From assembly GCA_946699065.1 (NCBI GenBank), contig CAMPDV010007745.1, positions 21,583-85,582 of the forward strand: a stretch of 64,000 nt of DNA, written 5' to 3'. Shown here piece after piece: positions 4,766 through 36,489 of the stretch (the first letter of the stretch is position 1; the number at the start of each line of letters is the position of its first letter). This DNA comes from Loxodes magnus. Taxonomy: Eukaryota; Ciliophora; Karyorelictea; Loxodida; Loxodidae. Below the pieces are notes generated by a model. The model searched no databases. It worked only from the letters and a program-made list of their open reading frames with translations, and was not told where the DNA came from. The position numbers and the translations under genes were made by a program.

Positions 4766-4779
4766 CGGATGATTAGCCT

Positions 4780-6900: not shown

Positions 6901-7084
6901 TATTTAAAGTATATAATTAGATTTTTCTCCAGAAAGAGGTTAATGAAAAAACTATAGTAAAAAAAACATATAAATCTTTTAGATTAGATCAAGATAGTTT
7001 TAAAATATAATTTATAAAACTAGATAGACTATTAATCATTAAAATAATTATTTGTCCTTCAAATTGATTACAGTTTTAAATGTA

Positions 7085-8045
7085 TGAAATCTAAGTTCCT
7101 GCATGCTCTATCATTATATTTCATTTTACTTAACTTCCTCTCCTTTTTATTTTCAGAGTTAAACATTTTTTTTTAAATTTTCCCATTTTTTGATGGTAAG
7201 AATTCTGTCGCTCTTTACTTCAGTTCTAACAGCTAATATTTCTCCAGATATTCTTTCTTATTTATTTCTAAAGTGTGGGTGTTTCCAACACAAATGCTGA
7301 GTGCTCTTGTAAATATAGCATCTCTTTCTTGCTCTAAGAAATGTTTTTTCTTACTTTTCTATTTCTATGGGAGTTCCTTATAAAGGCTTCTGCAAACTTT
7401 CTTCTAATAATTTTAGTTTTGAATCTAATTATACTCAATTTTTTTGCTCTCTCATTAATCAAATATTTTTCTCTAACTCTGTTATTCGATCATAAAATCC
7501 AATTTTAGCTCTTCGGTCTATCATATAGACTTCATAATCATTTGCATGCTTAAAGGTTCCGACATATTCAAATATTTTTTCCTTCTATGAGTTTAATTCC
7601 TCTTCAAATTATTTTATTTTTTTAAGATATTAACTGTATCAACTATTATGAATCCATTCGTATAATTTCAATACTATCTAAATAAAAGTACAGGGCTTAT
7701 AATGAATTATCGTACTTTGCCTTCTTCGTTCATTTTATATATTACTTTCGGAGATTCAGTTTAATGGTCTCTTTTTTCCGTTTTTATTGGAGGCGTTAAG
7801 AATGTGTTAACTCTTCTGTTCGGAATTTTTTCCTCAAAGTCTATTTGTCATTGATGGAAGAAAGCTACTTTTATTTTTTATTATAAAAGATGTTATTTCT
7901 TAATTTTTAAGTTTCTTTTCTGCTGGACTATTGTTGATCTTAAGAAAAATGGGGTAGTTGAAGTTGAGACGTGGTAAGAGAATATACTTCTGGTTTTCTC
8001 TCCTAATCCGAGGAAGTAGTAAAAAACTTTTCTGATTATAGCCAT
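7085..8045 (-). pseudogene. Gag-like ORF E7a with degenerate zinc knuckle
   Basis: The minus strand from ATG at 8045 reads MAIIRKVFYYFLGLGEKT, then TPPIKTEKRDHQ, KVIYKMNEEGK, a Glu/Lys-rich stretch and FEYVGTFKHANDYEVYMIDR. One frame change is needed near 7625. The region 7279-7320 aligns with the CCHC knuckle of the sister elements, but the second Cys is Tyr and the last Cys is not conserved (CYIYKSTQHLCWKH). It is therefore a decayed member of the gag-like family in opposite orientation. The paralogue in copy 2 spans about 30,835-31,764. Confidence 0.5.
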
Positions 8046-8049
8046 TTTA

Positions 8050-9660
8050 GTTTATAGACTAAATTAATCTTAATATTTAATTAAGCTAAACATGTTATAA
8101 CAATTCATAAAAAGGACTTATTAATCTAATTACAGAGTAAATATTTTAATATTTGTCCATAAAAGTAAAATAACTATATTTATAGAAAATGTTTATGAAA
8201 GCGTATAAAGATAAAGTAGATGAAATAAAAAATAAATAGTTTAGAATTATATAAAATAAGCTATATAAACTAACTTAGTAAAATAGGATTAATTTGTAAA
8301 TGAAATTAGAAGTATTATCTACTATTGATAAAGAGTATTATTATTATTATTAATGATTAAAACAAAAAATAAAAAAGGAGAAATAGCTTAGTCAATGGGA
8401 TCTTAGCATATGCTAATTTGGTAAATAATAATTGAAAAAGTGAATAAAAAATGATAATAATAATAATATTTTTAATAAATATAAAATTGAAAATATCTAT
8501 TTAGTGTTTTATATAATTAAGTATTACTTAAAAATTCTATAATAATAAAAAATATGAAGTTGACTTATTTTTAATGATAGTTAATAAATTAAATATGAAT
8601 AATTAGATTTTTTGAATTAAAAAATGTTGTAAATAATTTATAAATCTGATGATAACTATTTGATTATTATATTTGTCTAGTCTGATAAAATATTAAAATA
8701 AATGAATAACAATTAAATATTTTAATCGAATGTACATAAAATAATTTTGCTCTATCTATTTTATGACTAACTATGTAATAGTAAAATGTATTGTAATATT
8801 TAGCATTATTGAAAAGCTTAATGTATAAAAATAGTAAATTTGAAAGAGTATAAATTTCCTATATGATGTATATTAAACTAAAATAAAATTTCTTATATAA
8901 ATTATTTAATAATATTTTATATATATTAATTATAAGTTGAAAATTCTAGCAAAAAAGGAAGCAAGCAAATATATCATGTAACCATTTTAAGTAAAATAAT
9001 TGTTTAAATTAGTAATAAAGTTATTATAAATGAATATGTATTCAGATATTTTAATATATAATAGCTATTTTAATATCTATCTATATTTAAAGATGCTTAA
9101 TATTTAGCTCTTTAATTCTAAAAGGTTAGTATTATTATATAAGCTTGTATGGAATTATCATTTTAATCTACTTAAATAATTAAATAATTTTAGATAAATA
9201 AAATTATTTATTTACATTTGCTATAAAATTAGAGCCTATTATTTTATTTTTACTAGTAGATATCTTCGTAGCTAGTTTTTACCCTAAAGTTATAAATTAT
9301 GTATAATAATTTTATTGAGATATAAATGTTAATAAGAGATTTTTCCATGAGAATCTTAAAGATAAATTAAACTTAACTTCTAAATATAGCTATTAATAAT
9401 AAGAATTCTAATTTTATCAAATTATAAGACAGATAATAATTCAAATTATTTACTTAAATAGTTCAATATTTATAAAAATTATCAAGTAACCATAAATACA
9501 TTTATACTATTTCACTACTAAATATCAACTAACTAGATCAAACTCTTCAAACATTACATATATATATTATACATTATTCATTTATTTAACTATCAATTAA
9601 ATTTATTATTTTAATATTTAATACTTATATATAAATAATATTATCATTTTAAATTATATT
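8050..9660. other. AT-rich spacer, near-perfectly duplicated
   Basis: No gene seen. Contains short ATT runs near 8338 and AAT runs near 8455. From about 8250 to 9680 I find no difference from 31,980-33,400 in copy 2, although the RING-kelch coding sequence that follows differs at many positions. This is the 3' flank of the RING-kelch gene. Confidence 0.7.
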
Positions 9661-9662
9661 AG

Positions 9663-11173
9663 TCAGCCAATTCTTTTTAATGTTAAACAGCTCAAATTTA
9701 CTAAATCAATCTTTAATACTGAATACCTATCTTATTCTAACGCAAAAACATATCCAAACTTATCTTTTACTTTCATCTCATTTAAAGCAGCAACATCTTT
9801 AAAAATTTATCTTTATTCTCATTATTCTTTGTTTCTTTTATATATTCTTCTTGAATATTCTTATGTTTAAATATTTTTAATACCTCCAATTATAACTAAA
9901 GGTTCTAAGCACACTATAGGTAAAATAACAGCTTCAGGAAGATTCAAATCACACTTACTCCATCTATCTTTCTATATATTATACTTTAATATGTCTTTCT
10001 AAATTTATCCTTTCTAATTTGTTCCTCCAAAAGAATAAATATTTTATTCATCTTTATCTACTATTAATATTTAGTTAACTATTTAAAAAGGAAATTAAGA
10101 ACAGTTCTATCATTTATTTTCATTTCTTATTTTTAATTTTTCTACTGATTATAAGAAATATCCCTGTCTTATAGCACCTCCAACTACATAAATGTGTTCT
10201 TAAGCTGCTGCTATTCCAAATGCACATCTTCCTTCCTTTAGATTACTAAGTCTTTTACTATTACCTTTGCAATCAATTTATCAAGTTTCTTTTATTCCTT
10301 AATCCTATTTTCAAGACTTTCCTCCAATTAAATATAACTTATTCCAATATTCTATATTTCTACTTCCGAAGGGAATTATATTTTAAATTTTTACTTGCTG
10401 TAGCTATTCTTTTTCGATATTAAATAATCATAAATTTTTAGTTTCTTACTAAAAAAAGTGAATATACATAGAATCTTTTAACTTTTATTATGTTTAATTT
10501 ATATTTAACTAAACCATCTTTTATTCTTATAGATTTATATTTTCTTATAGTTTCTTTCTTATTAGTGAGATGTAATTTTAATTTATTAAATTTCTAAGTA
10601 AAAGTATAAAATTTTATTTTTAAGTTTATAAGATTTTAATGTTTTAATTTTATTACTTTTATATCATTTATTTTTAGTCTAAATTTTATATTTCAAAAAT
10701 ACTTTTTAAATTTAATTTAGAAATTATATTTCTATCTCTTATTCAATTCTATAAGATATTTATTTTCTAATCTAAATAAAAAACACTTTAAGATTATATT
10801 TCTTTATTCCTAAGATTACTTTATACTATTAAGTTAATAAGTAACTTACTAATATTTTATTATTTCTTTGTAATAGTAAAAGCTTTTTCTATTATTTACC
10901 TCTATATATCTTTTAACTTCTATTTAGTATTCTAACCTTTTTAGATTTATTATTCTTTCTCTTATATCTTTATTATTATATCTGTATAGGTAAATCTTCA
11001 AACTTAAAATGGTATACTTTCTCACAAATAGGACAAGACATTAATCCTTATAATCAGTACTGAGTATTCAAACATAAATCACAGTAAATATGTCCACAAG
11101 GTAAGACAGTTGGAAGAGCGTTAGTTAAGTTGTAATCATCCAAGCAGATTAAGCATTTTGGTAAGGCTTACAT
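9663..11173 (-). CDS. RING-finger/kelch-repeat protein, copy 1 (one 17-nt intron)
   Basis: Predicted 497 residues, encoded by complement(join(9663..10919,10937..11173)). Residues 7-50 form a complete C3HC4 RING: Cys7, Cys10, Cys26, His28, Cys31, Cys34, Cys47, Cys50 (LPCGHIYCDLC). A basic, Gln/Lys-rich helical linker spans about 55-235, then kelch blades with LYLIGGK and HIYVVGG signatures to about 440. RING-kelch architecture suggests an E3 ubiquitin ligase with a beta-propeller binding partner; this is family inference. Removing the GT...AG 17-mer at 10920-10936 makes ATG, RING, kelch and terminal TGA (9663-9665) one exact reading frame. Internal TGAs read as Trp (QYWLQG, LWLFNIEK, GGKSW). 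The paralogue in copy 2 has the same structure. Substrate unknown. Confidence 0.88.
10920..10936 (-). other. 17-nt intron of RING-kelch gene, copy 1
   Basis: On the minus strand the sequence is GTTAGAATACTAAATAG: GT at the start, AG at the end, and an internal TACTAA resembling a branch point. The RING frame upstream and the kelch frame downstream differ by exactly the 2-base phase that removal of 17 bases corrects. The same 17 bases occur at the same place in copy 2. Splicing is inferred, not shown. Confidence 0.75.
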
Positions 11174-11179
11174 TTTATT

Positions 11180-12350
11180 ATAATTTAGATAAAAACAGTT
11201 GCAATTATTTATTTATAACAGTAAGTATCAAAAATAAAGTATGATAAATATAAAATTTATATAGATTATATTTAAATATAATTTGCTTAAAATAACTGGT
11301 CTTATATAAGAGTCTAAAATAATAATAAATAGTTGATAGTAAAAAATATAATATAAATAGATAATAATAATATATATAATATTTTAAATATAATTAAAGA
11401 TTAAATCTATTTTACTATAAAAATTATAGATTATTTAATCTTAAAGATAGTCTAAATATTATATTCGTTTATGCTATTATATTTTTTATATATTTGTATA
11501 AAATTAGATAACTAAAGATTTTTGACTAAAGGTAATTTTTTATTTAATTAAGGATTTTAATAGAATTTTCGATAATTTTTTTTTTTTCGAAGAAATTAAA
11601 AAAATTAGAATAAAAACTAAGTGATAAATCTCTCTTAGTATTTGGATTTAAATATTATACTTTAAATATTAAAATAAAAAATAATAAAATTAAAATATTA
11701 TAAGGGAAATTTATATTAAGGATAAAATATATTAATTTCTATTTAAAAGCAAGGATCTTTATTTTAGTAAAGTATTAATAATTAATATTAATATTTAATA
11801 TTAATATACAGTTTTTCAAAAATATCAATTATGAATAGAAAAGATAATTCAATAGGATTTTAAAAATAAATAAGTATATCAAACGATAAAAAGGAATTAT
11901 AATTAATTTTTACTAAATAGATATTTTAATTTAGTATCATTAATTTTAATAAAATAAATATAAAAAATTATTATTTGTATAAAATATAACATTTGGAAAT
12001 AATTTACTATAATAAAATTAATTGAAAAGCTAAATTAATTAATTTAAATTATATAATTTTAAATTAAAAATTAAACTATAAATTTATATAAAATAAAGGT
12101 TATTATAAATACTATTTTTTATATAAGTATTTTACATCCATAAAGAATAAAAAAAATATAAACTTAATAAAAAATTATAGATTAAGTTAAAACTAATCAA
12201 TTAGATAATCTATAAAATCTAATTCATTTTATCTATTTAATACAGTAAATTTAATTTTTACAGTAATTTCCGGTATGAGGTTTAGTTAAAATGAGATAAA
12301 GTGATATCTAATAAAGAGTTTCTAAATAAAATAATTAGTTTATTTAATAT
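11180..12350. other. AT-rich spacer upstream of RING-kelch copy 1
   Basis: No gene seen. It should hold the promoter of the RING-kelch gene. Patchy similarity to 34,930-35,800 shows that the duplication once extended this far. The part around 11,640-12,240 also resembles 36,590-37,260. Confidence 0.5.
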
Positions 12351-12362: not shown

Positions 12363-13184
12363 CAAAAAAAAATGGAATAATCTATTCGCCTTTCCAAAAA
12401 CCAAATTAAGAACGCAAAAAGGAAAGTTGCGAAACTAATGCAGAAACAATAACAAGAAGAAGATAAATCAAGTTCCTCATCTGAAGGAAAAGTTATAATT
12501 GGAACAATAGAGACGAACCAGTAAAAGTACAAAAATAATCAGAAATCTAAATATAAATTGACTAAATGAAAACAATAATACAAAATTATTTGGAAACAAT
12601 TTACAATCAAGGGAAAAAATAAGAGAACTAATGAATACTATCGAAGATTAAAACAACGAGCTACTAATAATAAGAACACAATTGATTTAAAATAATTTAG
12701 TCACGGAATAGTAACTATATGAATAATCTCAATCGAATTTTAAGCAAGAACAAAATATGATTATTGAAAAAGTTTCTACATAAACAAACATCCAAGAAAA
12801 ATATAATGACGAAAAGATTAATATAGAATTACTCCAAAGAATCGATTAACTTGAAAAAAAGTATTTCTGAAGAGATTAAAGAAAAGACCAATCAAAAATT
12901 GTTATTATTGCAAATCAAAGTGACACCTATTACAAAATTGCGATCAGTGAAGATAAATTTAGATGAAAGAACGACAAAGAATGTTAAGAATGCTTAGCAG
13001 ACTCTGAATCACCGAAACGGGAATTTACAAGAAGAAGATATTCGTATAAAAAACAGAAGATTCTCAGTGGTTCCATCCACAAAAAAAATGGCGTGGTATC
13101 CATCCACGCTAAAAAACGGTAGCAAAAACCTGGTTGGAGATCCAAGGAATGCTAAACTTTAATTACTTTTAGTTTACTATTATT
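12363..13184 (+). mobile_element. Gag-like retroposon E3a with 12-bp TSD
   Basis: An 822-bp element between AATTAGAAACAT at 12351-12362 and the same 12 bases at 13185-13196. It starts with an A-run before ATG 12372 and ends with a short (ATT)n tail after GCTAAACTT. A sister copy, E3b, lies at 42,043-42,877 in opposite orientation with unrelated flanks, so these are two independent insertions of one element type. Confidence 0.85.
12372..13160 (+). pseudogene. E3a gag-like CCHC ORF
   Basis: Starts MEQSIRLSKNQIKNAKRK, as E3b does, then a Gln/Glu-rich coiled region. The zinc knuckle at 12900-12941 reads CYYCKSKWHLLQNC with its Trp encoded by TGA. The 3' part retains TRP-rich MAWYPSTLKNGSKNL. Several small differences from E3b shift the frame (for example around 12,510 and 12,690), so this copy is probably inactive while E3b looks continuous. 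No in-frame TGA lies at the coding end in this family, leaving the termination signal unclear. Confidence 0.65.
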
Positions 13185-17820: not shown

Positions 17821-18221
17821 AAAAATGAGACTAAAATAAAAAACTTAATTTTTATTATTTGATTTATCATTTTTTATTGCTATTACATATAGTCAGATTA
17901 AAGTCAGTATTATTATTTATAATAAATTAGCTTCTAATTATTTTTTTTATTTCTATTTACATTTTTAATTATTTATGAATTAAGGTTTTCAAATAAAATA
18001 TTATAAAGAATTTAAGTTAAGCTTATTATAACCTCCTTTTAAAAAATGTCTAAATTAATTAAACATAAAAATTATCTTTTGCTAACTAACTAGAAATTAT
18101 TACAATGCTTAAGAACTAACTAAAATAAGATATGAGATTAAGCTTTATTTAGATATAAGTAAAATCAAAGTTATTACATTTGTTTGATACAACTGAATAT
18201 TATGATATAATCAGAGTAAAA

Positions 18222-18918
18222 ATGGAAAATTTCTTGCAATAAGTCTCTTCTTAAAAGGATTCGTCTTAGTCAAAATATGACTAATAAAAAGTACTTTAAG
18301 AATTTCAAGTTATGCAATTAGAAAATTTTAAACTCCTAAGAACAGTATAAGAAATAGAAAGAAAAATAGAATATCCGATGACTAACTCACAAGAGAAAAA
18401 AATTGAAAATAAACAGTCAGGAAATATAAGAATAGAAAAATTCAACCAATTCGCAGAATTAACTGAAAGCATATTCTTATAAAAAATATAAATGAATGAT
18501 CCGATGGATGTTGAGCAGCAGCCCATAACAACTTTCATTCCATATCGAAAAATAATGAGATGCTGGTACTGCAAGCGCCCAGGGCACAAAGTAAGAAGCT
18601 GCTTCCAATTTTAATAAAAATAAAAGAAAATAATAGAAAACTAATGGGAAAATATTTTCAGAATCTATTGCAACTAAGAAGGTAAACTGTATAGAAAAAA
18701 ATACTACAACTAAAGAGTGACTCCTTATATCTAATAGGCGGTTAACGAATTCAATAAAAAGTGACTGGGATTCGACCTATCGGAAAAGATTAGAAATAAC
18801 AATCTAAAAATCACCAAGACCTATGATAGACAAAATCCAACCAGATTTGAAGTTGATACTTATACCTAACTTTAAACTTAAAAGTGGTTAGCCTAAAAAT
18901 GGCAGACCCACTATAATC
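18222..18918 (+). CDS. Gag-like CCHC protein of element E4, continuous frame
   Basis: ATG 18222 follows an A-run. One uninterrupted frame (TAR = Gln, TGA = Trp) gives about 230 residues: MENFLQQVSSQKDSSQSKYD, a helical charged N-half, the family motif NDPMDVEQQPITTF, then a perfect CCHC knuckle at 18561-18602 (CWYCKRPGHKVRSC). The C-terminal half includes KWLGFDLSEKIRNNN, where Trp is TGA. An (ATTT)n tail follows at about 18,920. Nucleic-acid binding is inferred from the knuckle. No polymerase lies nearby. I could not identify a target duplication, so it may be old or a domesticated copy, yet the ORF looks intact. Confidence 0.65.
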
Positions 18919-19640: not shown

Positions 19641-21005
19641 TCAAAGCTATTGTTCATAAAATTTATCATTCTCGAACTTTCCTTCTTTCTTAGTTCCATT
19701 TTTTAACCTTAGAATGCCCTGTCCTTGCTTTAGACCATTTATTCAATTTCCTTCGAAAATTTTTCCATTTGCATAGTAATAAATACCTTTGCCCTGTCTT
19801 TTGTCATTTTGAAATTCCCCAACATATTTGTCTCCTTTTTATGGACCTTATCCCCAAATAAATTTTCCTTAGCCTTGTTTTTTACCCTTTACGTAATATC
19901 CTTCAAACAGATCTCCATTTTAATATTTTTGAATACCTTTTCCATGCTATTTCCCATCAATCCAATCACCTTCATAGAGATCACCATATGCATAATAGTA
20001 TATTCCTTTGCCATGTCTCTTGTTAGCATTAAAATCGCCAACGTATTTATCTCCTGCATATTAGCCTTATTCTCAAGTAAAAGTACCTTATCCTTGTCTT
20101 TAATATTTTACAAATTATCCTTCATACTTATTTCCGTTCTTTCATATGAAAACTCCATTTCCAAGCTTATAGTCATTTTCCCAACTTCCCTCGTAGATGT
20201 TTCCACTGGAATAATAATAAGTTCCTTTACCGCATTTTTTATCATTATAGTATTCTCCAATATATTTATCTCCTTTTCCTTAATCCCAAGTAAAAGTTCC
20301 TTTTCCTTATTTTTTATTGCTTACAAAATGTCCTTAGTATCTTTCTCCATTAACTCACTTAAAGGTGCCATTTCCGTTATACAGGTTGTGAAAGAATTCT
20401 CCCTCATAGACATTTCCATTTGAATAGAAATAAACTCCTTTTCCATGTCTTTTTCCTTATAGCCATATTCCCATATAAACATCTCCTTTCCAAGGTGGAA
20501 CATTATAAAAGTAAACTCCTTTTCCTTCTTTTTTATCTTAATACCACTTTCCTTCATATTTATCGCCACTTTGATACAAATAAGTTCCATGACCATGATT
20601 AATATGACTGTTTTTTATGATGTATCCAGTATAGGTATCTTACCCGTAAGCTTTATCGACAACGTATTCAACTTCTTGCTCTCGATAGACTTTATAATTT
20701 TAAGGTTCGTACTTGAAAATTTTGTAAAAGTCTTAAAATTTCTTTTATAGCTGAACTTTATTTTCTTCATTCTCTTGCACCTAAGCAGCTTACATAAGCA
20801 TTTTTTATTAATTTTTTTAGGAATATTCCTGATAGTCTTCATCTTCATCTTTATCTTTATCTAAATCAAATTCAATATCTTTGAAATGAATTGGTGCAAG
20901 TAAATCTTAGTCATTATCAACATCTTAACACTCTTTATAAGTATTGCTCCTTAAATTTGCCTGAATATTTTTTTATTAATTTTTCCTCCCTCCAAATTCA
21001 CCCAT
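19641..21005 (-). CDS. MORN-repeat protein
   Basis: Intronless frame of 455 codons: ATG at 21005, TGA at 19641-19643 followed by AAAAAA; predicted 454 residues. The N-terminal ~130 residues are acidic and helical (DLDKDKDEDEDYQEY). Residues about 130-445 are tandem MORN repeats of 20-26 residues, with signatures such as GDKYEGKWYQDKKEGKG and GKGTFTWDQGKGDKY. Internal TGA codons sit at repeat positions where sister repeats have TGG: TFTW is TGG in one repeat and TGA in another, and EGNWING is TGA against EGDWIDG with TGG. MORN proteins typically bind membranes or scaffold cortical and ciliary structures; the exact role here is unknown. Opposite-strand open frames are shadows. Confidence 0.92.
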
Positions 21006-21009
21006 CACT

Positions 21010-22920
21010 CCTTATAACTGGAGACTTTTACTTTATTTTTTATGCTTTTACTTTATTTAAGTATTTGCTTAAGTGTTACCCATTTATTAATAAACTTCAT
21101 CTCAAAAAAGTTTAAAAATAATAGCTTTAATTATTTTATAGATCCAAGTAACTTATTTAAATTCATTCCAAATCTAAAATTAATTTAAGTTTCCCATAAA
21201 GTATACCATTTTTGAATAATTATGCTTACTCTTTATTAAGTTTACTCTGTATAAAGCATTAATTCTAATTTTATTTTATTAAATAGCTAATTAAAAAGGC
21301 ATTAGCTTTATTTAAAAGACTGATTTATTTAGGCTTAAGCATTTTTATTTTCTTTATCTTTAATCTAGAATTATATGAATGTTGGATAATCTCTCTAATA
21401 AATTCTCTTAAAAACTTAATTAATTCTACATCTTTATTATTTACTCAGTCCTGCTTATAATATATCTTTATTCTTACAATACTTAGTAATAAAAAGCTTT
21501 ACTAACACTTTTTGTAATTTTATAAATTTTTTCTATTTTGCTTAACTTGTTATATATTCCAAAGCTTTACCTATTTTATTTAAGTTAAAGAAAGATAACA
21601 AAATCACACTTATTTCTTTTTAAAAATATTTCGATTATAGAAATAACTCTTAAGCTTGTAGAAGAACCCTTATAATGAATGATTTTTATAAAAATAAATA
21701 AAAATTATAAATGAAACTATCTACACTATCTAAGATTTATTATTGCTATTTTTATATATCCTAATTTTAGCTTAAATATACAATTTAATAAAAAGCTATA
21801 AAAAAAGAAGCAATTATATCCTTTTTAATTACATATAGCTACTGAGAATAAAATTTTTTAATTAATTGTTTCATGTTTTAATTAAAAATTATCTAAGGTA
21901 GTGCTTTTATAAAATAATATATATATGCTTTTAGATTAAGAGTTCTTTGATAAAGATATGTGTGTAAAGAATATCTATAAAAAAGTTGTATTAATTGTGT
22001 TTATGTAGAAGCTTATTTAGAAGAATATGATTAAATGTAACTTCTTTAATTAATTAAAAAGATTATCTTTACTTTTATCATTTATGTATAAAAATTTAGA
22101 ATGTATAATAATGCTTAATCAATTAAGTAATTTTTATTTCACTTTCAACTAAAACTCAATTTTATATAATTTAAACCAGATTTTTAAAGGACTTAGTTTA
22201 AAGGAGTTTTTGTTCTCTTATTCGATCTATACTTAGCTTATTAAGGTAAATTATAATCATTATGTAAATTTTCCCTAAAATGTTCAGTTTTTTATAAATT
22301 GCTTCTAAAAAAAGAAAAGGAAGGCTATTTATTTCTCTCTTTTACTTTGCCAATTTCATACTTTGAACTGTAATTTCAATTAACAAAGAATTTAATTTCA
22401 TATTCATTTCCGAATTATTATATTTAACTAAATTTTAATAACTTTTTTGGCTCAAATGCTTAGGCAGTTAAATAAGTAGGTTATTAATTACGAATATAAA
22501 TTTGCGGGCTGAGGGCTGAAAAAGGATAGAATAACGGGGAATAAAGAACTTTATGATTGAATGATATAAATTATAAAAAATTAAAACTACACTGAATATA
22601 CACTTCTTGATTAAAAATATAGGGAATTATTATAAAACCAAGCAAATAATTTAAGTTAAATTTTATTTTTAAATCAATCTGGATTTAAGCAATTAATTTT
22701 GAGAAAAAGCAAAAAATAAAGAATTTTATTGCTGGTATAGCAATGATTTGTTTAAGAATAATCATAATTAAAATTAAATTAAAAGGTAGCTTATCATTAT
22801 TAATTCATACTAAACACTTGTAATGGCTTAATTTTTAAATATATATACTAAATTATATAAAACTTACTATATCAATTATGATGAAAAGAGTAGATTTATA
22901 AAAAGGCAATGCTACTAAAT
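21010..22920. other. AT-rich spacer with a small GC patch
   Basis: Upstream of the MORN gene, so its promoter should be near 21,010-21,200. No convincing gene. A short G-rich patch at about 22,503-22,545 (GCGGGCTGAGGGCTG, then GAATAACGGGGAATA) stands out and weakly recalls the GGAATAACGGGGATA of S elements. Confidence 0.5.
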
Positions 22921-23411: not shown

Positions 23412-24644
23412 ATTTTTGATAAGTATTTTATTAAAATGATATAAAAAATTATTTTTTAATTTTGAAAAGCATAATTTAGTACATGGATAACTTGATGACT
23501 CCTTAGTTATACATTTTAAAATTGCACTTGAAAATTCTTACATGATAGTTTTATATTAGCCATTTTAATTAAAATCCAAATAAATGAGCTAATTAGATCT
23601 TTAAAATTAAACCTTAATTTAACCTTAATCTAATAGATCTTCATTATTTACTTTTTTTTCTTCTGCTTATATACTTTTTTTATTTTTTGCAAGATTAACT
23701 CTGATAAATATTTTCCTTTTTTAATTAAAAATAAATTTAACATCATTAAAAGTAGTAATCAGTGAATAAGTTGAACTGCAAGCTTTTGTAACAAAAGCTG
23801 CTTAAAAATTTAAATTAATATTGATTTTAGATAGTTTATTAATATAAATAGTTAGTAACTTAAAATAGAAAAGCATTTATGTAGTGGAACTTATAACAAT
23901 TAAATATATTCCTCTAATGTTTATACTTATTAATTTATAAAAGTTTCTTCAGTCAAACTATAATAATTTATAAAATATAAGTTCATTAATAAATAAAGTA
24001 AAGAATTAACTTACAGCTAAGATAAATGTATTGCAGCTATATTTATGCATTAAGGCATGTAAAATAGCTTAAGGAAATAGATAATAAATAAATAAATTTG
24101 ACTTATAATAATTTATAGAAATATTTATAAGATATTTAAATCTTCCCCCTTAAACAATTTGATTTACTTTGCTTCTTCTTGATCTTTATCTGTATTATTC
24201 TGTTTTTCAATTTTTTAAATCATATCTATTTTTCATACACTCATGTGTTTAAAAATCCTTAAAAATAGCACAAAAATTGCTGATGATCAAAATATTCAGA
24301 ATATTTTACTTAAAATTTAGTAAATTTAAGACCAAAGTTACAATTCTTACAAAAAAGATATGATTGGATATTTAAAATGAAAAAATTAGTTTTGATTTAA
24401 ATTTAAATCTTTAAACTAAGAAAAATAAAATAAAACAGGCTGAAGTTATTTCATTTTTTTCTAATTAATTTGAACATAAAATTTATCATATAAAAGGCTA
24501 CTAAATAAAAATCATTTTTGACATAGGATTCTATAAGATTTTATCCCTCTTATAGTTGCAGATCTTAAATTTGCATACACTCTCAGATTGATGATAGATA
24601 ACTTCAATAAGTGGTATTATTTCTCAGAAGCCATTTTATTCATA

Positions 24645-25172
24645 TATAAATAAATAAATTTGATTATAGAGCGCGTAGCACTCTCGTTGGTGCGCAGCTC
24701 TTTTAAAAAAAATGTTTCATACTGACAAGAATGTTTGTTACTGATAAAATTATCAGATACTGATAAACCTTGTTCAATACTGTATAATTATTCAGTACTG
24801 ATAAAAATGTTCAATACTGATATAATTTTAGAATACTCGTAATCTTTAATAATTGCTGGAGATCCAAGGACAAGGCAGGATTCTGTCTCATTGCATCACC
24901 AAAGCAGAGGACGACATGTGTCAATTATGGGTACTTAAATTCCCCACCTCTGATGAAGCTCGCAATATTATTTCTTTTTCGTTCCAGTATTAAAAATAAA
25001 CGAAGCCAAGCCAACGTCGAAGGTCTAAGAATCTTATGTCTCGAGGTCAAACCAAAGCAGAGGAAGACATAAAGTCGATTATGGGAACTTAACTTCCCCA
25101 ACCTCTGATGAAGATGACCTTGTTGTTCACCTTCGAACAACTATGGCGGTTTTAAAAATCTCAAATAATATA
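24645..25172 (-). mobile_element. Dimeric SINE-like element H1, absent from copy 1
   Basis: Present only in copy 2; the empty site is at about 1776-1790. Read on the minus strand it has two tandem related units of ~105 bp, then about six ~20-bp repeats of a CAGTATTGAACA type, then a hairpin (24669-24700) and an (ATTT)n tail. Its sister H6 at 41,130-41,655 is in opposite orientation. A target duplication of about 9-10 A/T bases is likely but the AT-rich site makes it ambiguous. It has no real ORF; short open frames here are accidental. Confidence 0.75.
24669..24700 (-). other. 3' hairpin of H1
   Basis: On the plus strand GAGC.GCG.TAG.CAC, an 8-base loop, then GTG.CGC.A.GCTC: three short helices separated by a bulge. 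The same design occurs in four other elements (37645-37675, 36080-36111, 39082-39112, 41604-41635). Confidence 0.65.
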
Positions 25173-25277
25173 ATAAAATAATTTATTAGTATTATTAAAG
25201 AATATAAAAATTACTTCTAAGAAATAATAGAATTTATACCAGTACACTAAAACAGGAAACCCTTCTAAAAAATAAAA

Positions 25278-25815
25278 ATGCGTAGGCTATATAAAGAAAG
25301 AAAGTTAGATGCAAGACTGATACGATTAACATTAATCAGCTGGAAACCAGAAATTGGAAAAACTGCATATAGAAACATAAATAGAGATGCTATCCAAGTC
25401 ATTAAAATATTTTATATTAAAAATAGAAAACTCATGGAAGGTAGAAAAATTAGAAAAAATAATAAAGAACCTACTTGAGAAGCATTATTACTTAGTCTTA
25501 GATATGTGAAACAAATTAGAATAAAAAATAACTTAAATTTTACAATATATCCAGGTAATATCATTTTCTTTTTAACAGAACAAATCGATCCTATGAAAAT
25601 AATTCTATAACTAAAAATTTTGATCTTTGGATAAAGAATAATTAAGATCGCTACAAACAAGAGAGTAACTATTCAGACTATTAAAGGATGGTGCGCTAAT
25701 GAAATGTTACACCTCCTAATTAGCCTGGTAGGAATTTTAATAAAGCAAATAAAGATAAACTGATAGAATATATCAGATGGCTTATTATTAAAACTTGATA
25801 AAGTCCTTTATTTTC
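25278..25815 (+). pseudogene. Unknown ORF module P2 (copy-2 paralogue of P1)
   Basis: ATG 25278 reads MRRLYKERKLDARLIRLTLI, then SWKPEIGKTAYRNINRD, AIQVIKIFYIKNRKLMEGRK and, after a Trp encoded by TGA, EALLLSLRYVKQ, IIFFLTEQIDPMK and IKGWCANEMLHLL. This is cleaner than P1, which has TGA-TGA and Ile/Trp changes. The first 66 codons contain no reassigned codon. Its inverted partner is at 26,155-26,880. Family unknown; the paired inverted arrangement suggests a mobile or rearranged origin. Confidence 0.45.
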
Positions 25816-26154
25816 TTTTTACTATTAAAAATATACTAATGCAAGCTGCTATGAGATAAAATGTTATTTAATTTTTTTATTTTTCTTCTTTTGGTCTTAA
25901 ACATTTTACAATTGTTTACTAAATGATAGGTTGAATAGTAGAGATAGCATTTCTTTATTAAATAATTTTATTATTAAATCTTTTTCTTTACTTTTGTTAT
26001 CCTTCTATTTCAGAGATTCATTTTACTACTATGTTTAAGATCCTTCAATATCCAATTTAATTATAGTTTCCTATTTTATTCTTGTATTAAAAATTACTTT
26101 TAGTAATCAATCTGTTAGTCTCAATTACTTAGATTTATTCTTTTCTTTTAAAGT

Positions 26155-26880
26155 TAAAGTTAAAGTTAAAAAGCTTTGTTAAAGCCTTAGTAGTCAGCCA
26201 TCTGAACTATTCTATCAGCTTGTCTCCATTAGTTTGTCATGAATTCCTACTAGGCATAGTTAGGTGGTATAGCCCTTCATTAGTGCACCATCCTTTAATA
26301 TTCTGAATAATTATAGTCTTGCATGTAGCGTTCCTAATTATTTCTCCAAGGATTAAGATTTGAATTAAAGAATTTTTTTCTATAAATATTTCCGCTTTAT
26401 GTTGGATATATCCTAAATAGTTTTTAAAAAATATCTTATTTATTCTTTCTTTAAATTTCGCTTAGTTAGTAGCAGTATTTTCATTGGTGTTATTTATTGC
26501 ACACGTAGCATTTTATTCTTCTTTTAAACTATTATTCCTGTAACACTTATTTAATTTAAATTTACTACTTATTTTAAATTAATATTTACTGTTTATTTTA
26601 ATTTGAGGCTTCATTTTCTATTTCCATAAGATCTGATTAATTCTGTTAAAATGAAAATGGCGTTACATGAATTTATTACTAAATTTAAAGAATTCTTTGC
26701 TCCAGTTTGTTTTTTATTTCTTATGATGATTAATATTGTTTCTCAAGCAAAGACGTTATTAATTTTTCTAATTTTTCTACTTTAGCAGTGAGGTATATAT
26801 TTTGGAACATAAACTATTTTAATGACTTAGATAATATTTCTATTTGAGTTTGTGTTCGAAGTTTTTTTAATTCTGTATTT
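26155..26880 (-). pseudogene. Unknown ORF module M2 (copy-2 paralogue of M1)
   Basis: Nearly identical to 2,760-3,480 and interpreted the same way. It keeps IKGWCTNEG and DKLIEQFRWL on the minus strand. Forms the inverted partner of P2. Confidence 0.4.
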
Positions 26881-26906
26881 CCAAGTTATATAATTTTTGT
26901 CAAAAT

Positions 26907-27833
26907 AAAAAAATGGAAGGATTCAAAAGAGGTTTCTATACCACCTCCAAAAAGTTGGAGAGGAAACTTGAATCCAATCTTGGATAGTCTTCTTACTCTT
27001 AACCCTAATTTTTTCTTAATTCTAACAACCTGAAGAGGAACAGAAACAAGCTAAGAAGACAACACATGAGATAATTCCAACCTCAGAAGAGAAGCCCAGA
27101 AAGCAGATGAAGTCTGCTCTGCACCAGGAGGTCTCAAAGTTCAATCCTTCTGGCCAGATGAGCATGGAACAGCTCATCAAAGTGGTACTAAACCTCCAGG
27201 AAGAGGTTAAGAAACTGAGAAAGGACAATGAGAAACTGATGTAAAAACTCAACTTAGCGGAAGGAATAGAATCCAGACTTATGTCCTAAGAAAGAGAACT
27301 AAGCGCTTTCTGAAACATATCTTAAGAACAGAGTAGCTAATCCTAAAATTAGCTTCAGAAACAATCTGATCTGAGAATTAGACTGGAAATACTAGAAAAG
27401 AAATTAGATGAACAAAGGGGAGATCCAATGATGATTGAAGAGACCAATAGGAAGACTAAGGTTAAACTCCAAAAAGTAGTGAAGAAATGCTACTACTGCA
27501 ATTCGACAGAACACTTATGAAGACGTTGCAAGGAATTCCAAAAATTTCAAGACGTAGTACTGGAATAAATAAAGAACCATACAAGCACAGTAGAGGAAGA
27601 AAAAACAAATGTAGTAGAGACAAATAAGAGAAAGATTATACTTAAATGAATAAGGATACATTTACAAGAGAAAATTTAATTAGAAATAAGGCTAGATCCG
27701 GAAATGACAAGAGTAATGGGAGGAAAGAGGAGTAGAGACATCTAAACTTGATTTTTAACACTGGAGCAATCTGGTGTCCAGCATGAAGAGGTGAAAATCC
27801 TCGAAAATTGCTAAACTTAATTTATCCTATTAT
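26907..27833 (+). mobile_element. Gag-like retroposon E2b with 18-bp TSD
   Basis: Copy-2 version of E2a. Flanks are TATAATTTTTGTCAAAAT at 26889-26906 and TATAATTTTTGTTAAAAT at 27834-27851. ATG at 26913. It is 20 bp longer overall because it keeps a 24-bp stretch lost from E2a. Confidence 0.85.
26913..27800 (+). pseudogene. E2b gag-like CCHC ORF
   Basis: Same protein as E2a with the complete LNLQEEVKKLRKDNEKLM helix. An intact CCHC knuckle lies at 27488-27529 (CYYCNSTEHLWRRC, Trp by TGA). The one-base deficit between ATG frame and main frame in the T-run near 27,010 is shared with E2a, so it predates the duplication. Likely inactive unless the shift is tolerated. Confidence 0.7.
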
Positions 27834-27904
27834 TATAATTTTTGTTAAAATCTTCAAACTCAACATTACTTTACGAACCATTAATATTATTTGCAAATTT
27901 TAAT

Positions 27905-28165
27905 TAAATAATTAATCACTTTCTCTTTCAAGCCACTAGAAATTCCTTCCCAGCTCCACGAATCAAGGCCCTCCTTAATTCATATGGCATGGATATTTTA
28001 TTCCTTAATCCAATAAACTCATGTCAGGGAGTTTTACGAATAGATATCAAAACTTCAAGCAGCTAGCAAGAGCAAATAACCAAAATAGTTTATTTCCTTA
28101 CAGGAGTTGAATTTAAACAAGAACATTCTCAGTGACAGGATAGAAACTCGACCTTATCCATTAAA
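27905..28165 (+). mobile_element. Diverged short element S3b
   Basis: Copy-2 counterpart of S3a, with GAACATTCTCAGTGACAGGA matching the S1 block GACTTTCTCAGCGACAGGA. Noncoding. Confidence 0.5.
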
Positions 28166-28169
28166 CTAG

Positions 28170-30057
28170 AAGATTATATCGGATGATTAGCCTAAACTCA
28201 GTTTAACTTACTATATGCTAATTTAAAATATTTGAACACATGTAAAGTTCTTAGCTATTTTTAAATAAGGGACTGGCTAATATAAACTTACTATATAAGA
28301 AGCTCTATATTGCATGATCAGATACTATTATTTTTTAAATGCTCAATTAAAGTATCTAGATTTATAGATCTAAATATTCCATAGAATGCTAGCATCCAAA
28401 AAGTTTGAACTGTTGAAAATATAAAAAAGCGAAAAATAAGAGTAGAATTTTAAAGTAAAATAATAATTTAAAAATAAATAAAATAAAATAGGTACTTTAT
28501 AAATAAGATATACTACTTAAAAATATTATCTATCTTATTTAAGAAGCTTTAGCTAATTTAGTTTATTAAGCTTAATATTAATAGTTTAATATGAGTCAAT
28601 TAATCATTTTGCTAACTTAATATTTGTATTAAAATTTATACTAAAGAAATTAACTTTTATATATATTTACATTTTATTATTTTTATAATAAATATTTTAT
28701 ATTGAAATAATTAATAAAAATAAGATAATTTTAAATATATTTTAATAATATAAATAAATAATTTAAATATTATATTATTAATTAAATTATATATATCATA
28801 TTGTTATTTTTATTTTTATACTATCTGATATTATTAACTTATTATTTATTTTATTTACCTTAATTATAAGCAAAATGAGCTATTCAAAAATGTTAAATTT
28901 GCTTATATTATTACAATTTAAATAACATTTTTCCAATTGCTTTATCTTACTCCCATATTTATTGTAGTTTTGTGTTGGATTACTCAATACTATTTGTAAG
29001 GTTTTATGTTATGTCCTATTTATTGAAAAGTATTTAATTTAAATTTTAAAGATTTTCTAAAGTTACAGATTATATATATTAAAAATATGCTAATATTATA
29101 AAAGCAAATAATTCTTATAAAAATAAAGTTAAAAGTTTAAATGAAAGCAAATATTAAATGAGTAAAAATAAAAATGTATTAATAAGATAAAAATAACATT
29201 ATTAATAAACATTTAGATAAAAAAGTTTAAATTATTTAAATTATTAGATTTAACACTAATTGAGTTTAATTAATAATATATCAATAAAAGGAGAATAAAA
29301 TTATATATTCATAAATTAAACTGATAATTTGCTAAATCATCAAAGATTATCAATATATAATTGATTTGATAGTAAAAAATGTAAGAACTAAATATAAACT
29401 TTAAACTTAAAAAATGACACTGAAATTAAAATATAATAATATTTTGATTGATTTAACTTCATAATTGATTAAGACTATTTTAAATACTTTTAATTTATTA
29501 AATAATCTCTTAGTTATGTTTAGTTTAATATTTTATATTTTATTTAATAGATATTAAAATAATTTTAATTACTATATTCTTTTAAACATATAGTCAATTA
29601 TTATTTTATAAAATTTAAAAAATGGTAAATAGAAATAAGTTTTATTTTTATTTAAAAGAAAGCAAAATTTCTTTCTTGTTATTAAAATTAGCAAAATTAT
29701 TAAAGTAACTTTCTTTTTTCATTTTATAAAAATAAACAAATATACTCCTTAAGAATATTTTTTCTAAATTTTTGATTTTCTGTAATCAATCAAATCTTAA
29801 ATTGGTATTTAAAATTCTTTTTATTTTTATTAAACTATTTAAAGTAAAAGCCTAACTTCATTATTTACGTAAAAAAAATAATGTTCTACATTTAAAAATC
29901 CTTTATTAAAGAATAATTATTAGATCAATTGAAAGTGAGATAGAGTTTCGATTATAAATTAATTAATTTACTAAAAAAAGTTTAGACTAGAATAAAAATA
30001 AAATGCTTACTATAAATAATTTAAAACATAAAAATATTCTTAACCTGTAGAATATTT
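28170..30057. other. AT-rich noncoding spacer
   Basis: Counterpart of 4,780-6,650. No gene recognised. Confidence 0.65.
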
Positions 30058-30076
30058 AATTATATAGTTAATAATT

Positions 30077-30382
30077 AATTAATTTCAACTAAAAAAGTTT
30101 TTGGGCCGGAAACTCCTTTCCGATTATACGACCCGACACTCTTTTTTTATGGAATAACGGGGATATCCTGTTGTGCTCCAGGCACAGCTGCTAGGGAGCT
30201 TCATCGCTATGAGCAGCCAGGCTTCAAGCCCCTACCAAGAGCGGATAATCTAAAAGACAGTGTTCCCTTCAGAAAATGACTCTGACCAGGGACTTTCTCA
30301 GCGACAGGAAAGGAACTTGTTCCTAGCTATAAAACTAGAAAGTGTTGTCACGAAGGTCATTCTCAGCTCCCACTATCTTTTC
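30077..30382 (+). mobile_element. Short GC-rich noncoding retroposon S1 with ~19-bp TSD
   Basis: Inserted only in copy 2. AATTATATAGTTAATAATT flanks it at 30058-30076 and, with two extra bases, at 30383-30403; the empty site in copy 1 is 6652-6670. About 300 bp, far richer in GC than its surroundings, with no sustained protein-like frame. Contains a GTGC-TCCAG-GCAC hairpin and GGCTTCAAGCC. S2 at 36,209-36,487 shares the core almost exactly. Long target duplication points to LINE-mediated retroposition. Confidence 0.8.
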
Positions 30383-30834
30383 AATTATATATAGTTAATA
30401 ATTTTACTAAATTGTTATACCTTAATCAACTATTAATTTAAGCTTTATTATTTTATTTACAATTTTTTTTAAATAATTTACAAATAATTACATTATAAGC
30501 AAGTAATCAGAAATTAACGCGATATGAAATAAATTATTTGCAAATATTTATCATTAAAAGAATAAAAATGTTGCCAACTACATTACTTTATTAAAAATAA
30601 ACAAAAAATTTAGTTTAAAAGTTAGATAATTTTATTAATTAAATTATATAATTAGATTTTCCTCCAGAAAGAGGTTAATGAAAAATTATAGTAAAAATCA
30701 ATATATATATCTTTTAGACTATATCATGATAGTTTTAAAATATTATTTAGAAAACTAGATTAACTATTAATAATTAAAATAATTATTTGTCCTTCCATTC
30801 GATTGAAGTTTTAAAAGTATGAACTCTACGTTCC

Positions 30835-31764
30835 TGTATGTTCTATTATTATATTTTATTTTCCTTAACTTCCTCTCCTATTTATTTTCAGAGTAAAACA
30901 TTTTTTTCTTTCAAATTTTCCCATTTTTGATGGTAAGAATTCCGTCACTCTTTACTTCAGTTTCTATCAGCTTATATTTCTCCAGATATTCATTCTTATT
31001 TATTTATAATATGTGAGTTTTTCCAACGCAAATGCTAAGTGCTCTTGTAAATATAGCATCACTTTCTTGCTCTTCTCTATTTTTATGGGATTTCCTTATA
31101 AAGGCTTCTGCAAACTTTCTTTTATTAATTTTAGTTTTGAATCTAATTATACTCAATTTTTTTACTCTCTCATTAATAAAATATCATTCTCTAACTCTGT
31201 CATTCTATCATAAAATTCAGTTTTAGCTCTTCGGTCTATCATATAGATTTCATAATCATTTGCATATTTAGAGGTTCTGACATATTTCAAATATTTTTCC
31301 TTCAATGAGTTTAATTCCTCTTCGAATTTTTTTATTTTTTTAAGATATTAACTGTATCAACTATTAAGAATCCATTCGCATAATTTCAATACTATCTAAA
31401 TAAAAGTACAGGGCTTATAATTAATTATCGTACTTTGTCTTCTTCGTTCGTTTTATATATTACTTTCGGAGATTCAGTTTAATGGTCTCTTTTTTCCGTT
31501 TTTATTGGAGGCGTTGAGAGTGTGTTAACTCTTCTGTTCGGAATTTTTTCTTCAACGTCCATTTGTATGTTGATGGAAGAAAGCTGTTTTTTATTTTTTA
31601 TTATTAAAGATGTTATTTCCTAATTTTTAAGTTTCTTTTCTGCTGGAAAATTGTTGGCCTTAAGAAGAATGAGCTAGTTGAAGTTGAGGCATGGTAAGAG
31701 AAGATACTTCTGGTTTTCTCTCTTAATCCGAGGAAGTAGTAAAAACTTTTCTGATTATATCCAT
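30835..31764 (-). pseudogene. Gag-like ORF E7b with degenerate zinc knuckle
   Basis: Copy-2 version of E7a from ATG at 31764 (MDIIRKVF). It has lost more of the knuckle than E7a: CYIYKSTQHLRWKN. A deletion of about 14 bp relative to copy 1 near 31,075 disrupts the frame. Two short plus-strand open frames at 31,013-31,226 are shadows of it. Confidence 0.45.
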
Positions 31765-33380
31765 TTTAGTTTATAGACTAAATTAATCTTAATATTTAAT
31801 TAAGCTAAGCATGCTATAACAATTCATAAAAAGGACTTATTGATTGAATTACAGAGTAAATATTTTAATATTTGTTCATAAAAGTAAAAGAATTATATTT
31901 ATAGAAAATGTTTATGAAAGCGTATAAAGATAAAGTAGATGAAATAAATAATAAATAGTTTAGAATTATATAAAATAAGCTATATAAACTAACTTAGTAA
32001 AATAGGATTAATTTGTAAATGAAATTAGAAGTATTATCTACTATTGATAAAGAGTATTATTATTATTATTAATGATTAAAACAAAAAATAAAAAAGGAGA
32101 AATAGCTTAGTCAATGGGATCTTAGCATATGCTAATTTGGTAAATAATAATTGAAAAAGTGAATAAAAAATGATAATAATAATAATATTTTTAATAAATA
32201 TAAAATTGAAAATATCTATTTAGTGTTTTATATAATTAAGTATTACTTAAAAATTCTATAATAATAAAAAATATGAAGTTGACTTATTTTTAATGATAGT
32301 TAATAAATTAAATATGAATAATTAGATTTTTTGAATTAAAAAATGTTGTAAATAATTTATAAATCTGATGATAACTATTTGATTATTATATTTGTCTAGT
32401 CTGATAAAATATTAAAATAAATGAATAACAATTAAATATTTTAATCGAATGTACATAAAATAATTTTGCTCTATCTATTTTATGACTAACTATGTAATAG
32501 TAAAATGTATTGTAATATTTAGCATTATTGAAAAGCTTAATGTATAAAAATAGTAAATTTGAAAGAGTATAAATTTCCTATATGATGTATATTAAACTAA
32601 AATAAAATTTCTTATATAAATTATTTAATAATATTTTATATATATTAATTATAAGTTGAAAATTCTAGCAAAAAAGGAAGCAAGCAAATATATCATGTAA
32701 CCATTTTAAGTAAAATAATTGTTTAAATTAGTAATAAAGTTATTATAAATGAATATGTATTCAGATATTTTAATATATAATAGCTATTTTAATATCTATC
32801 TATATTTAAAGATGCTTAATATTTAGCTCTTTAATTCTAAAAGGTTAGTATTATTATATAAGCTTGTATGGAATTATCATTTTAATCTACTTAAATAATT
32901 AAATAATTTTAGATAAATAAAATTATTTATTTACATTTGCTATAAAATTAGAGCCTATTATTTTATTTTTACTAGTAGATATCTTCGTAGCTAGTTTTTA
33001 CCCTAAAGTTATAAATTATGTATAATAATTTTATTGAGATATAAATGTTAATAAGAGATTTTTCCATGAGAATCTTAAAGATAAATTAAACTTAACTTCT
33101 AAATATAGCTATTAATAATAAGAATTCTAATTTTATCAAATTATAAGACAGATAATAATTCAAATTATTTACTTAAATAGTTCAATATTTATAAAAATTA
33201 TCAAGTAACCATAAATACATTTATACTATTTCACTACTAAATATCAACTAACTAGATCAAACTCTTCAAACATTACATATATATATTATACATTATTCAT
33301 TTATTTAACTATCAATTAAATTTATTATTTTAATATTTAATACTTATATATAAATAATATTATCATTTTAAATTATATTA
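31765..33380. other. AT-rich spacer, counterpart of 8,050-9,660
   Basis: No gene seen. From about 31,980 to 33,400 I see no difference from copy 1. Confidence 0.65.
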
Positions 33381-33381
33381 G

Positions 33382-34919
33382 TCAGCCAATTCTTTTTAAT
33401 GCTATATAGCTCAAATTTACTAAGTCGATCTTTAATACTGAATCTCTATCTTATTCATAAGCAAAAACATATCCAAACTTATTTCTTACTTTCATCTCTG
33501 TCTAAGTAGCAACATTTTAAAAGATTTATATTTATTCTCATTATTCTTTGTTTCTTTTATATATTCTTCTTAATTATTATAATGTTTATAAATTTTTAAT
33601 ACCTCCAATTATAACTAAAGGTTCTAAGCACACTATAGGTCAAGCGACAGATTCAGGAAGTTTCAAATCACACTTACTCCATCTATCATTTTATATATTA
33701 TATTTTCATATGTCTTTTAAAGTTTATCCTTTCTAATTTGCTCCTCCAAAAGAATAAATATTTTGTTCATCTTTATCTACTATTAATGCTTAATAAGTTA
33801 TTTAAAAAGGAAATTAAGAACAGTTCTATCATTTATTTTCATTTCCTATTTTTAACTTTTCTACTGATTATAATATCTGTCTCTTTCTAATACAACCTCC
33901 AACTACATAAATATGTTCTTTAGCTACTGCTATTCCAAATCCAAATCTTTCTTCATTTAGATTACTAAGTCTTTTACTATTACCTTCATAATCAATTTAT
34001 CAAGTTTCTTTTATTCCTTAAAGTTAATTTTAAGATAATCCTCCAATTAAATATAACTTATTTTAATATGCTATACTTCTACTTCCTAAGGGGATCATAT
34101 TTTAAATTTTTACTTGCTGTAGTTATTCTTTTTCAATATCAAATAATCATAAATTTTTAGTTTCAAACTAAAAAAAGTGAATATGCATAGAATCTTTTAA
34201 CTTTTATTATGTTTATTTCATTTAGTTTATATTTATCTAAACCATTTTTTATTCTTCTAAATTTATATTTTCTTATAGTTTCTACCTTATTAGTGAGATG
34301 TAATTTTTATTTAGGTTTTATATTTTATTCATTAAATTTCTAAGTAAAAGTATAAAATTTTATTTTTAAGTTTATAAGATTTTAATGTTTTAATTTTATT
34401 ACTTTTATATCATTTATTTTTAGTCTAAATTTTATATTTCAAAAATACTTTTTAAATTTAATTTAGAAATTATATTTCTATCTCTTATTCAATTCTATAA
34501 GATATTTATTTTCTAATCTAAATAAAAAACACTTTAAGATTATATTTCTTTATTCCTAAGATTACTTTATACTATTAAGTTAATAAGTAACTTACTAATA
34601 TTTTATTATTTCTTTGTAATAGTAAAAGCTTTTTCTATTATTTACCTCTATATATCTTTTAACTTCTATTTAGTATTCTAACCTTTTTAGATTTATTATT
34701 CTTTCTCTTATATCTTTATTATTATATCTGTATAGGTAAATCTTCAAACTTAAAATGATATGCTGTCTAGCAAATAGGGCATGACATTAAGTCTTATAAA
34801 TAATATTAAGTAGACAAACATACACCACAGTAAATATGTAAGCAAGGTAAGACAGTTGGAAGGGCGTTAGTTAAGTTATAATGTTGTAAGCAGATTAAGC
34901 ATTTTGGTAAGGCTTACAT
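33382..34919 (-). CDS. RING-finger/kelch-repeat protein, copy 2 (one 17-nt intron)
   Basis: Predicted 506 residues, complement(join(33382..34665,34683..34919)). All eight RING ligands are kept (Cys7, 10, 26, His28, Cys31, 34, 47, 50), but many other RING residues differ from copy 1: LPCLHIYCGVC against LPCGHIYCDLC, and QYYLQD against QYWLQG. Kelch blades are also changed at many sites, and the second exon is 27 bp longer, a multiple of three. The helical linker (about residues 60-210) and the intron are identical in the two genes. Frame, start, intron and terminal TGA all survive, so both genes are probably functional. Expected role as in copy 1: ubiquitin-ligase-like, with substrate set by the kelch propeller. 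Confidence 0.87.
34666..34682 (-). other. 17-nt intron of RING-kelch gene, copy 2
   Basis: Same 17 bases as at 10920-10936, and removal again joins the RING and kelch frames exactly. Splicing inferred. Confidence 0.75.
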
Positions 34920-34929
34920 TTTATTATAA

Positions 34930-35800
34930 TGATTATAAAAAGTGAGGTTAAATAGTAAATTTATAACAGTAAGTATCATAAAGTATGATAATAAAAATAT
35001 ATATTATATGAATATAATTAGGTAGATCTAAATAAGAGTGTAAGAGTATAATAGATATTTAGTAATAATATGATATAAATATATATTATTAAAGCTAATA
35101 CTTATACCTTGTTCTTCAATTACTTGGTGAGTTTAATTAGAGGGTATTTTAGTTTAATTTAGAGTGAGTTTAAAAGGATCTTTGAATAATAATTTGGATT
35201 TGAAGTGGTTATAGGATATAAATAATAATTATAAATATAATTATGAAATCTATTTTAAGGTTTCTTATTTTGTTAAGATAATCTAAATAATACTTTGATT
35301 AATGCTATATATTTTTATATATTTATGCTATTTTTATTAAAAGGCTTTGAATAAGGATAAATTTGTTTTAATTATATTAAGTTATTTTAAAATCATTTTT
35401 AATTGTTTCTCGCTCCAAGAAAATAAAGAAAAATACATTAATATTATGGACAAATAGTGAATCTCTCTTAATATATTTATTTAAATAACCCATTTTAAAT
35501 ATCAATTTGAAGAATTAAAATAAGGCTATGTAAGATTATTTTTAATATAAGGAATCAAAAATACTTTAATTTATTCACTAAGGGATTTTACTAAAGCACT
35601 AATATTTAATAGTAATATACTCCTACAAATTAAAACTATTAAAACTAAATATATAATTTCACACCTTTTTAATTATTACTATATTAAAAGACTAAAAATC
35701 ATTACAACATAGTTTACATTTAGTTTAATTAAGAGTAAAATTACAGTCTAAGCTAGTTATATCTAATAATTAAATATATAAAATATATTATTATAATTAT
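34930..35800. other. AT-rich spacer upstream of RING-kelch copy 2
   Basis: No gene seen. Patchy similarity to 11,200-12,200. Confidence 0.5.
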
Positions 35801-36487: not shown

Positions 36488-36489
36488 GT

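Follow-up and report, generated by a model that had tools for sequence, protein, structure and literature searches.

The window, by which is meant the whole stretch of 64,000 nucleotides that was analysed, has a G+C content of 22.9%, and in it the bacterial translation table lists just one open reading frame of at least 150 residues, lying antisense to a MORN-repeat gene. The expectation of the initial annotation that ordinary gene prediction would fail on this DNA was thus borne out. Segments proposed by a self-trained coding HMM, many of them without Pfam support, served only to choose regions, and a tRNA scan of the window returned zero tRNA genes. The MORN-repeat gene was resolved as follows.

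19641-21083, minus strand: MORN-repeat gene, beginning at ATG 21083 or at the in-frame ATG 21005 and having TAG CTT TGA (19649-19641) as its last codons
20355-20357, minus strand: internal TGA, residue 217 (GTFK-W-VNGE), in a column with TGG in the TFTW and KFIW repeats
20142-20144, minus strand: internal TGA, residue 288 (GVFI-W-KNGN), tyrosine in the four best PDB relatives
20073-20075, minus strand: internal TGA, residue 311 (GTFT-W-EQGQ), a paralogous repeat having TFTW with TGG
19743-19745, minus strand: internal TGA, residue 421 (EGN-W-ING), with TGG in four other repeats

The product of this gene scored 192.5 bits against Pfam MORN and matched PDB MORN1 chains with an E value of 6e-45. 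Read from ATG 21083, it comprises 480 codons, with 4 TGA, 7 TGG, 31 TAA, 3 TAG, 9 CAA and 6 CAG among them. All four TGA fall within two repeat columns, and the same columns hold six of the seven TGG; three TGA share a column written with TGG in the TFTW and KFIW repeats and occupied by tyrosine in others, and the fourth occupies the YxGxW column, which is TGG in four repeats. It had been proposed that TFTW is written with TGG in one repeat and with TGA in another, and that the EG-W position alternates in the same manner; both were confirmed, the EGN-TGA repeat paralleling EGSW, EGDW and EGKW with TGG. For random placement of four TGA into 26 of the 480 positions (two columns in each of 13 repeats, corresponding to 13 Pfam MORN stretches), the probability is 6.8e-6, a value that is indicative only because the columns were picked post hoc and because G-to-A decay of TGG favours the same sites. 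Against tryptophan, three of the four sites are tyrosine, cysteine or leucine in the best PDB relatives: residue 217 faces tyrosine in the four best and histidine in the fifth listed, and residue 311 faces cysteine in three of the four best and leucine in the other. Residue 421 is tryptophan in the radial spoke head 1 homologue 7dmp. A scan of viral contigs with the MORN protein found zero relatives.

The meaning of TGA in the MORN gene was assessed by setting it to each of the 20 residues in turn and scoring the product against Pfam MORN. Tryptophan ranked first (192.5 bits), followed by Phe (189.5), Tyr (185.0), Leu (180.7), Ser (179.5), Cys (179.1), Ile (177.9), Met (175.3), Lys (174.5), Ala (172.4), Arg (171.7), Asp (170.5), Val (170.3), Thr (169.9), His (167.2), Gln (167.1), Gly (166.9), Asn (165.8), Pro (163.9) and Glu (162.0). 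That its lead over phenylalanine was just 3 bits counts against tryptophan. With TGA set to tryptophan, 10 residues were tried for TAA/TAG, and here glutamine ranked first (192.5 bits), ahead of Asn (190.7), Ser (190.0), Lys (189.3), Glu (188.6), Arg (186.3), Asp (180.1), Leu (176.0), Tyr (160.9) and Gly (135.4). In the MORN gene, therefore, UGA as tryptophan and UAR as glutamine are the best-scoring options, in agreement with the initial annotation.

A second long frame is that of the surface protein of the initial annotation.

43844-49732, minus strand: large surface-type protein, a GGA/FxN repeat region followed by cysteine-rich and hydrophobic segments

Between 43985 and 49732 on the minus strand, its 1916 codons include 18 TGA, 6 TGG, 77 TAA and 33 TAG; at least nine internal TGA had been anticipated. 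The protein yielded no Pfam match above cut-off (Chlam_PMP reached 17.3 bits, under its cut-off of 20.6), no relative in viral contigs, and a best E value of 2.1 when its C-terminal 772 residues were searched against the PDB. With no homologue reached by these searches, the evidence on its 18 TGA comes from codon statistics. Together with the MORN gene (2396 codons), the ratio of TGA to TGG is 22:13 and UGA accounts for 0.92% of codons; were TGG the sole tryptophan codon, tryptophan would make up just 0.5% of the two products (13/2396).

The initial annotation had also described RING-kelch genes that use TGA for tryptophan and then end on TGA.

11003-11173, minus strand: RING domain, with a TGA at 11054-11056
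9663-10454, minus strand: kelch-repeat segment (PDB kelch 2woz, E 5e-10), with its last TGA at 9663-9665

The RING TGA was tried as 10 of the 20 residues, and seven Pfam models pass their cut-off with tryptophan. Tryptophan was the top residue in four of the seven, by 0.1-1.9 bits, namely zf-RING_UBOX (41.8, runner-up Gln 41.0), zf-RING_2 (40.0, Tyr 38.1), zf-RING_5 (38.0, Gly 37.9) and zf-C3HC4_2 (30.7, Leu 30.1). A preference for Gly was given by zf-C3HC4_3 (30.9 vs Trp 30.8), for Leu by zf-C3HC4 (30.7 vs 30.4) and for Tyr by Prok-RING_4 (30.8 vs 29.6), and zf-RING_11 lay under its cut-off with tryptophan and above it with some other residues. Among the five PDB chains listed, the site is Trp in RNF126, a gap in RNF4 (2 chains) and Ala in TRIM25 (2 chains). 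Within the kelch segment, internal TGA have their first bases at 10430, 10313, 10283, 10112 and 9821 (minus strand); the alignments listed, which were read site by site by eye, cover three of these. TGA 10112 is tryptophan in every listed alignment covering it (2woz, in two stretches, and three KLHL20 chains); TGA 10313 is Trp in KLHL20 but Glu/Asp in 2woz, and at TGA 10283, 2woz has Phe/Ile and KLHL20 has Glu. The RING TGA, the five internal kelch TGA and the last TGA thus exist as described, but relatives carry tryptophan at some of the sites only, and the RING and kelch parts lend modest support to UGA as tryptophan, strongest at TGA 10112. Candidate short introns of 22 and 19 bases, noted by eye in this gene, were dropped, as the DNA separating RING from kelch received a non-coding score.

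A second copy of the kelch segment retains four of the five internal TGA. Of its other differences, two speak against tryptophan, since TGA stands there where copy 1 has TTA (Leu); in addition, one TGA and one TGG have each become TAA. With 55 of 71 changed codons nonsynonymous between the copies, copy 2 looks to be under relaxed constraint. The two copies belong to a direct duplication of approximately 11 kb (17-265 and about 1170-11260 vs 23748-35000), the copies of which lie 22.9-23.7 kb apart and which is non-contiguous, about 265-1170 being without a partner. Stretches with 0-1 substitution (2600-3200, 8200-9600 and 10600-11000) alternate with stretches that are roughly 4-19% divergent (6600-8200, 9600-10600 and 11000-11400), a mosaic such as gene conversion would give. 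The RING and kelch parts (9663-11173 vs about 33382-34918) diverge between copies, and most of the intervening DNA and the 3' flank are identical. Elsewhere in the window are a related G+C-rich pair at 30108-30584 and 36229-36678 (0.47 over 30096-30377 and 0.44 over 36229-36480, the window being at 0.23) and a Myb-like DNA-binding domain at 59776-59916 on the minus strand (Pfam PF00249, 29.1 bits), within a coding-like segment at 59362-59949.

Further TGA occur in the knuckle motifs of gag-like elements.

42082-42870, minus strand: gag-like open reading frame with knuckle CYYCKSK-TGA-HLLQNC (TGA motif at 42339)
12372-13152, plus strand: second gag-like copy with the same knuckle TGA (motif start 12900) and single-base indels
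40799-40840, plus strand: third knuckle, CFCCGSL-TGG-HLYRKC

The tryptophan preceding the histidine of the knuckle had been said to be TGG in one element, denoted E5, and TGA in another. Provided that E5 is the element at 40.8 kb, this is correct: the codon is TGG in the motif at 40799 (plus strand) and TGA in those at 12900 (plus) and 42339 (minus). Between the two gag-like copies, 7 of the 11 changes involving TAR and another codon are TAR/CAR exchanges, counted over the whole aligned frame, including the region behind the knuckle, after removal of gapped codons. This speaks for UAR as glutamine, but such pairs are inflated by common mutational C/T exchange. Another gag-like segment, at 18186-18911 on the plus strand, has the classical knuckle CWYCKRPGHKVRSC. 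The region 37647-39383 (minus strand) looks as though it may encode the C-terminal portion of a non-LTR reverse transcriptase; it had no Pfam match, and a PDB search with 37647-39023 was empty up to an E value of 10. When 1-5, 12-19.5 and 35-44 kb were scanned in six frames against Pfam, there was no match at E 0.001, and hence no reverse transcriptase, whereas abundant LINE-type reverse transcriptase genes might be expected of Loxodes magnus.

Whether UGA also terminates translation was addressed at the ends of the genes.

19641-19643, minus strand: TGA taken as the MORN stop, from log-odds and the G+C drop, with the TAG two codons upstream as the alternative stop

With a model trained on the MORN and surface genes themselves, coding log-odds were positive as far as the last ten codons of the MORN gene and negative from the TGA onward, and G+C was 0.303 in the gene vs 0.14 in the next 150 bases. 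TGA is absent from the last 33 codons of the MORN gene and TAA from its last 65, with one TAG present; the last 20 codons contain 0 TGA, 0 TAA and 1 TAG. The claim that UGA is a stop as well as a sense codon finds support in the abrupt end of the coding signal at TAG-CTT-TGA, but UAG may be the stop there. As either terminator is a sense codon upstream, some ambiguity is required, and it is partly shown that the MORN gene is ended by a codon which also serves as sense. The surface gene presents no clean TGA end. Its coding signal is already fading near 43985, ahead of a TAA at 43967-43969, and TGA does not recur in frame until 43844-43846; if it ended at this TGA, its final 20 or so codons would hold 0 TGA and 2 TAA, a comparison confined to two genes. 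The end of kelch copy 1, where the coding signal is weak from approximately 25 codons ahead of TGA 9663-9665 and strongly negative beyond, is weak evidence for UGA as a stop.

Given these observations, the window is very probably ciliate nuclear DNA that uses an ambiguous code of a kind already described, in which UAA and UAG inside genes would be decoded as glutamine, internal UGA would be decoded as tryptophan, and UGA at the gene end would most likely act as the stop. This code is NCBI table 27, that of karyorelict ciliates, with table 28 of Condylostoma nearby, and the initial annotation had named both groups correctly. Both the code and the base composition agree with Loxodes, and a karyorelict of this sort would be the most probable origin. 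The karyorelict code was reportedly described by Seah et al. in 2022. Table 27, as represented by Loxodes magnus and Parduczia sp., shares with the window UAR as glutamine, UGA as tryptophan and most likely also as end stop, and an A+T-rich 3' flank.

In L. magnus, to which table 27 is assigned, UGA is the only stop and is read as tryptophan at positions remote from the poly(A) tail, G+C is 33.5% in coding sequences and 18.6% in the 3' UTR, and UGA and UAA, but not UAG, are depleted ahead of the stop (PMC11441545). The corresponding G+C values for the MORN gene and its 3' 150 bases are 30.3% and 14%, and the MORN end, with TAG present and TGA and TAA absent, matches the depletion pattern. An account of Loxodes and other karyorelicts assigns UGA as stop and UAR as glutamine, with UGA as tryptophan unmentioned in the portion available (PMC6935857). 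With respect to the decoding of UGA, readthrough of this codon in reporters increased once tRNA-Trp(CCA) had its anticodon stem shortened to 4 bp, and a tRNA-Trp(CCA) with such a stem occurs in Loxodes and Blepharisma (PMC13092985). Blastocrithidia nonstop, a trypanosomatid, likewise combines UGA as tryptophan with a 4-bp-stem tRNA-Trp(CCA) (the latter from PMC13092985), but reads UAR as glutamate, which in the MORN gene scored 3.9 bits under glutamine.

Of the alternatives, a Condylostoma-type code (table 28) survives best. It is rather unlikely; as it has the same sense meanings, with UAA and UAG serving as stops too, its odds overlap with those of the best explanation. Both C. magnum and Parduczia read UAR as glutamine and UGA as tryptophan; in C. 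magnum, mass spectrometry places tryptophan at UGA and a tRNA-Trp(UCA) went undetected (PMC4967479). Table 28 would accommodate the TAG that precedes the final MORN TGA, as this may be the stop, and the fading of the surface-gene signal near TAA 43967-43969 rather than at TGA 43844-43846. Sense UGA is, however, rare in C. magnum (0.042%), and the 0.92% in the two genes here also exceeds the 0.12% of Parduczia (PMC4967479); in the parts of the literature examined, no genome-wide UGA frequency was found for Loxodes. The occurrence of TAG, but of neither TAA nor TGA, just ahead of the MORN end is moreover the pattern of L. magnus, as judged from two gene ends only. A further reading, that UGA is the main tryptophan codon (22 of 35 in the two genes) and yet the normal stop, was considered unlikely; the organism would then be an unsampled karyorelict that uses the ambiguous codon far more heavily than Parduczia and Condylostoma do, or a member of another lineage in which the code arose independently.

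Returning to table 27, the same sense code has also been proposed outside the ciliates, and it is highly improbable that the DNA derives from a non-ciliate alveolate of this type. In the dinoflagellate Amoebophrya ex Karlodinium veneficum, UAR as glutamine and UGA as tryptophan have been proposed, UGA constitutes 9.7% of in-frame stops in stop-containing genes, and tRNA-Trp(CCA) has a 4-bp stem (PMC12005148). This lineage differs, however, and its terminating codons are unsettled; the A+T-rich window and A+T-rich 3' flank, on the other hand, resemble those of L. magnus. Slightly less probable again is the Tetrahymena code (table 6), with UGA as the sole stop and the TGA-bearing genes as pseudogenes decaying by G-to-A change at TGG. 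Such decay would be in keeping with the likelihood of nonsense mutation from TGG to TGA, with the frameshifts of one gag-like copy and with the relaxed look of kelch copy 2, but the MORN gene is in register for 480 codons and retains 43 GGA codons, any of which a single substitution would turn into TGA, the surface frame is in register over 1916 codons with three times as many TGA as TGG, and the two genes would hold merely 13 tryptophans. Since with UGA reserved for termination the MORN gene would be interrupted at four places and the surface gene at 18, the earlier exclusion of a Tetrahymena-like code was sustained. Finally, Rfam includes SECIS families, and UGA as cysteine (as in Euplotes) or selenocysteine is scarcely credible: cysteine would suit MORN residue 311, given the cysteine in three of its four best PDB relatives, but it scores 13.4 bits below tryptophan in MORN and ranks at or close to the bottom in the main RING models, and selenocysteine would demand 18 sites in one surface protein in a window where the Rfam scan found no family at gathering score.

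The ambiguous code explains the failure of standard gene finding on this window, and genomes with such a code need gene models that permit UGA both as tryptophan and as stop. If UGA is truly the majority tryptophan codon, the organism would be suited to measuring how ribosomes discriminate between sense and stop UGA.
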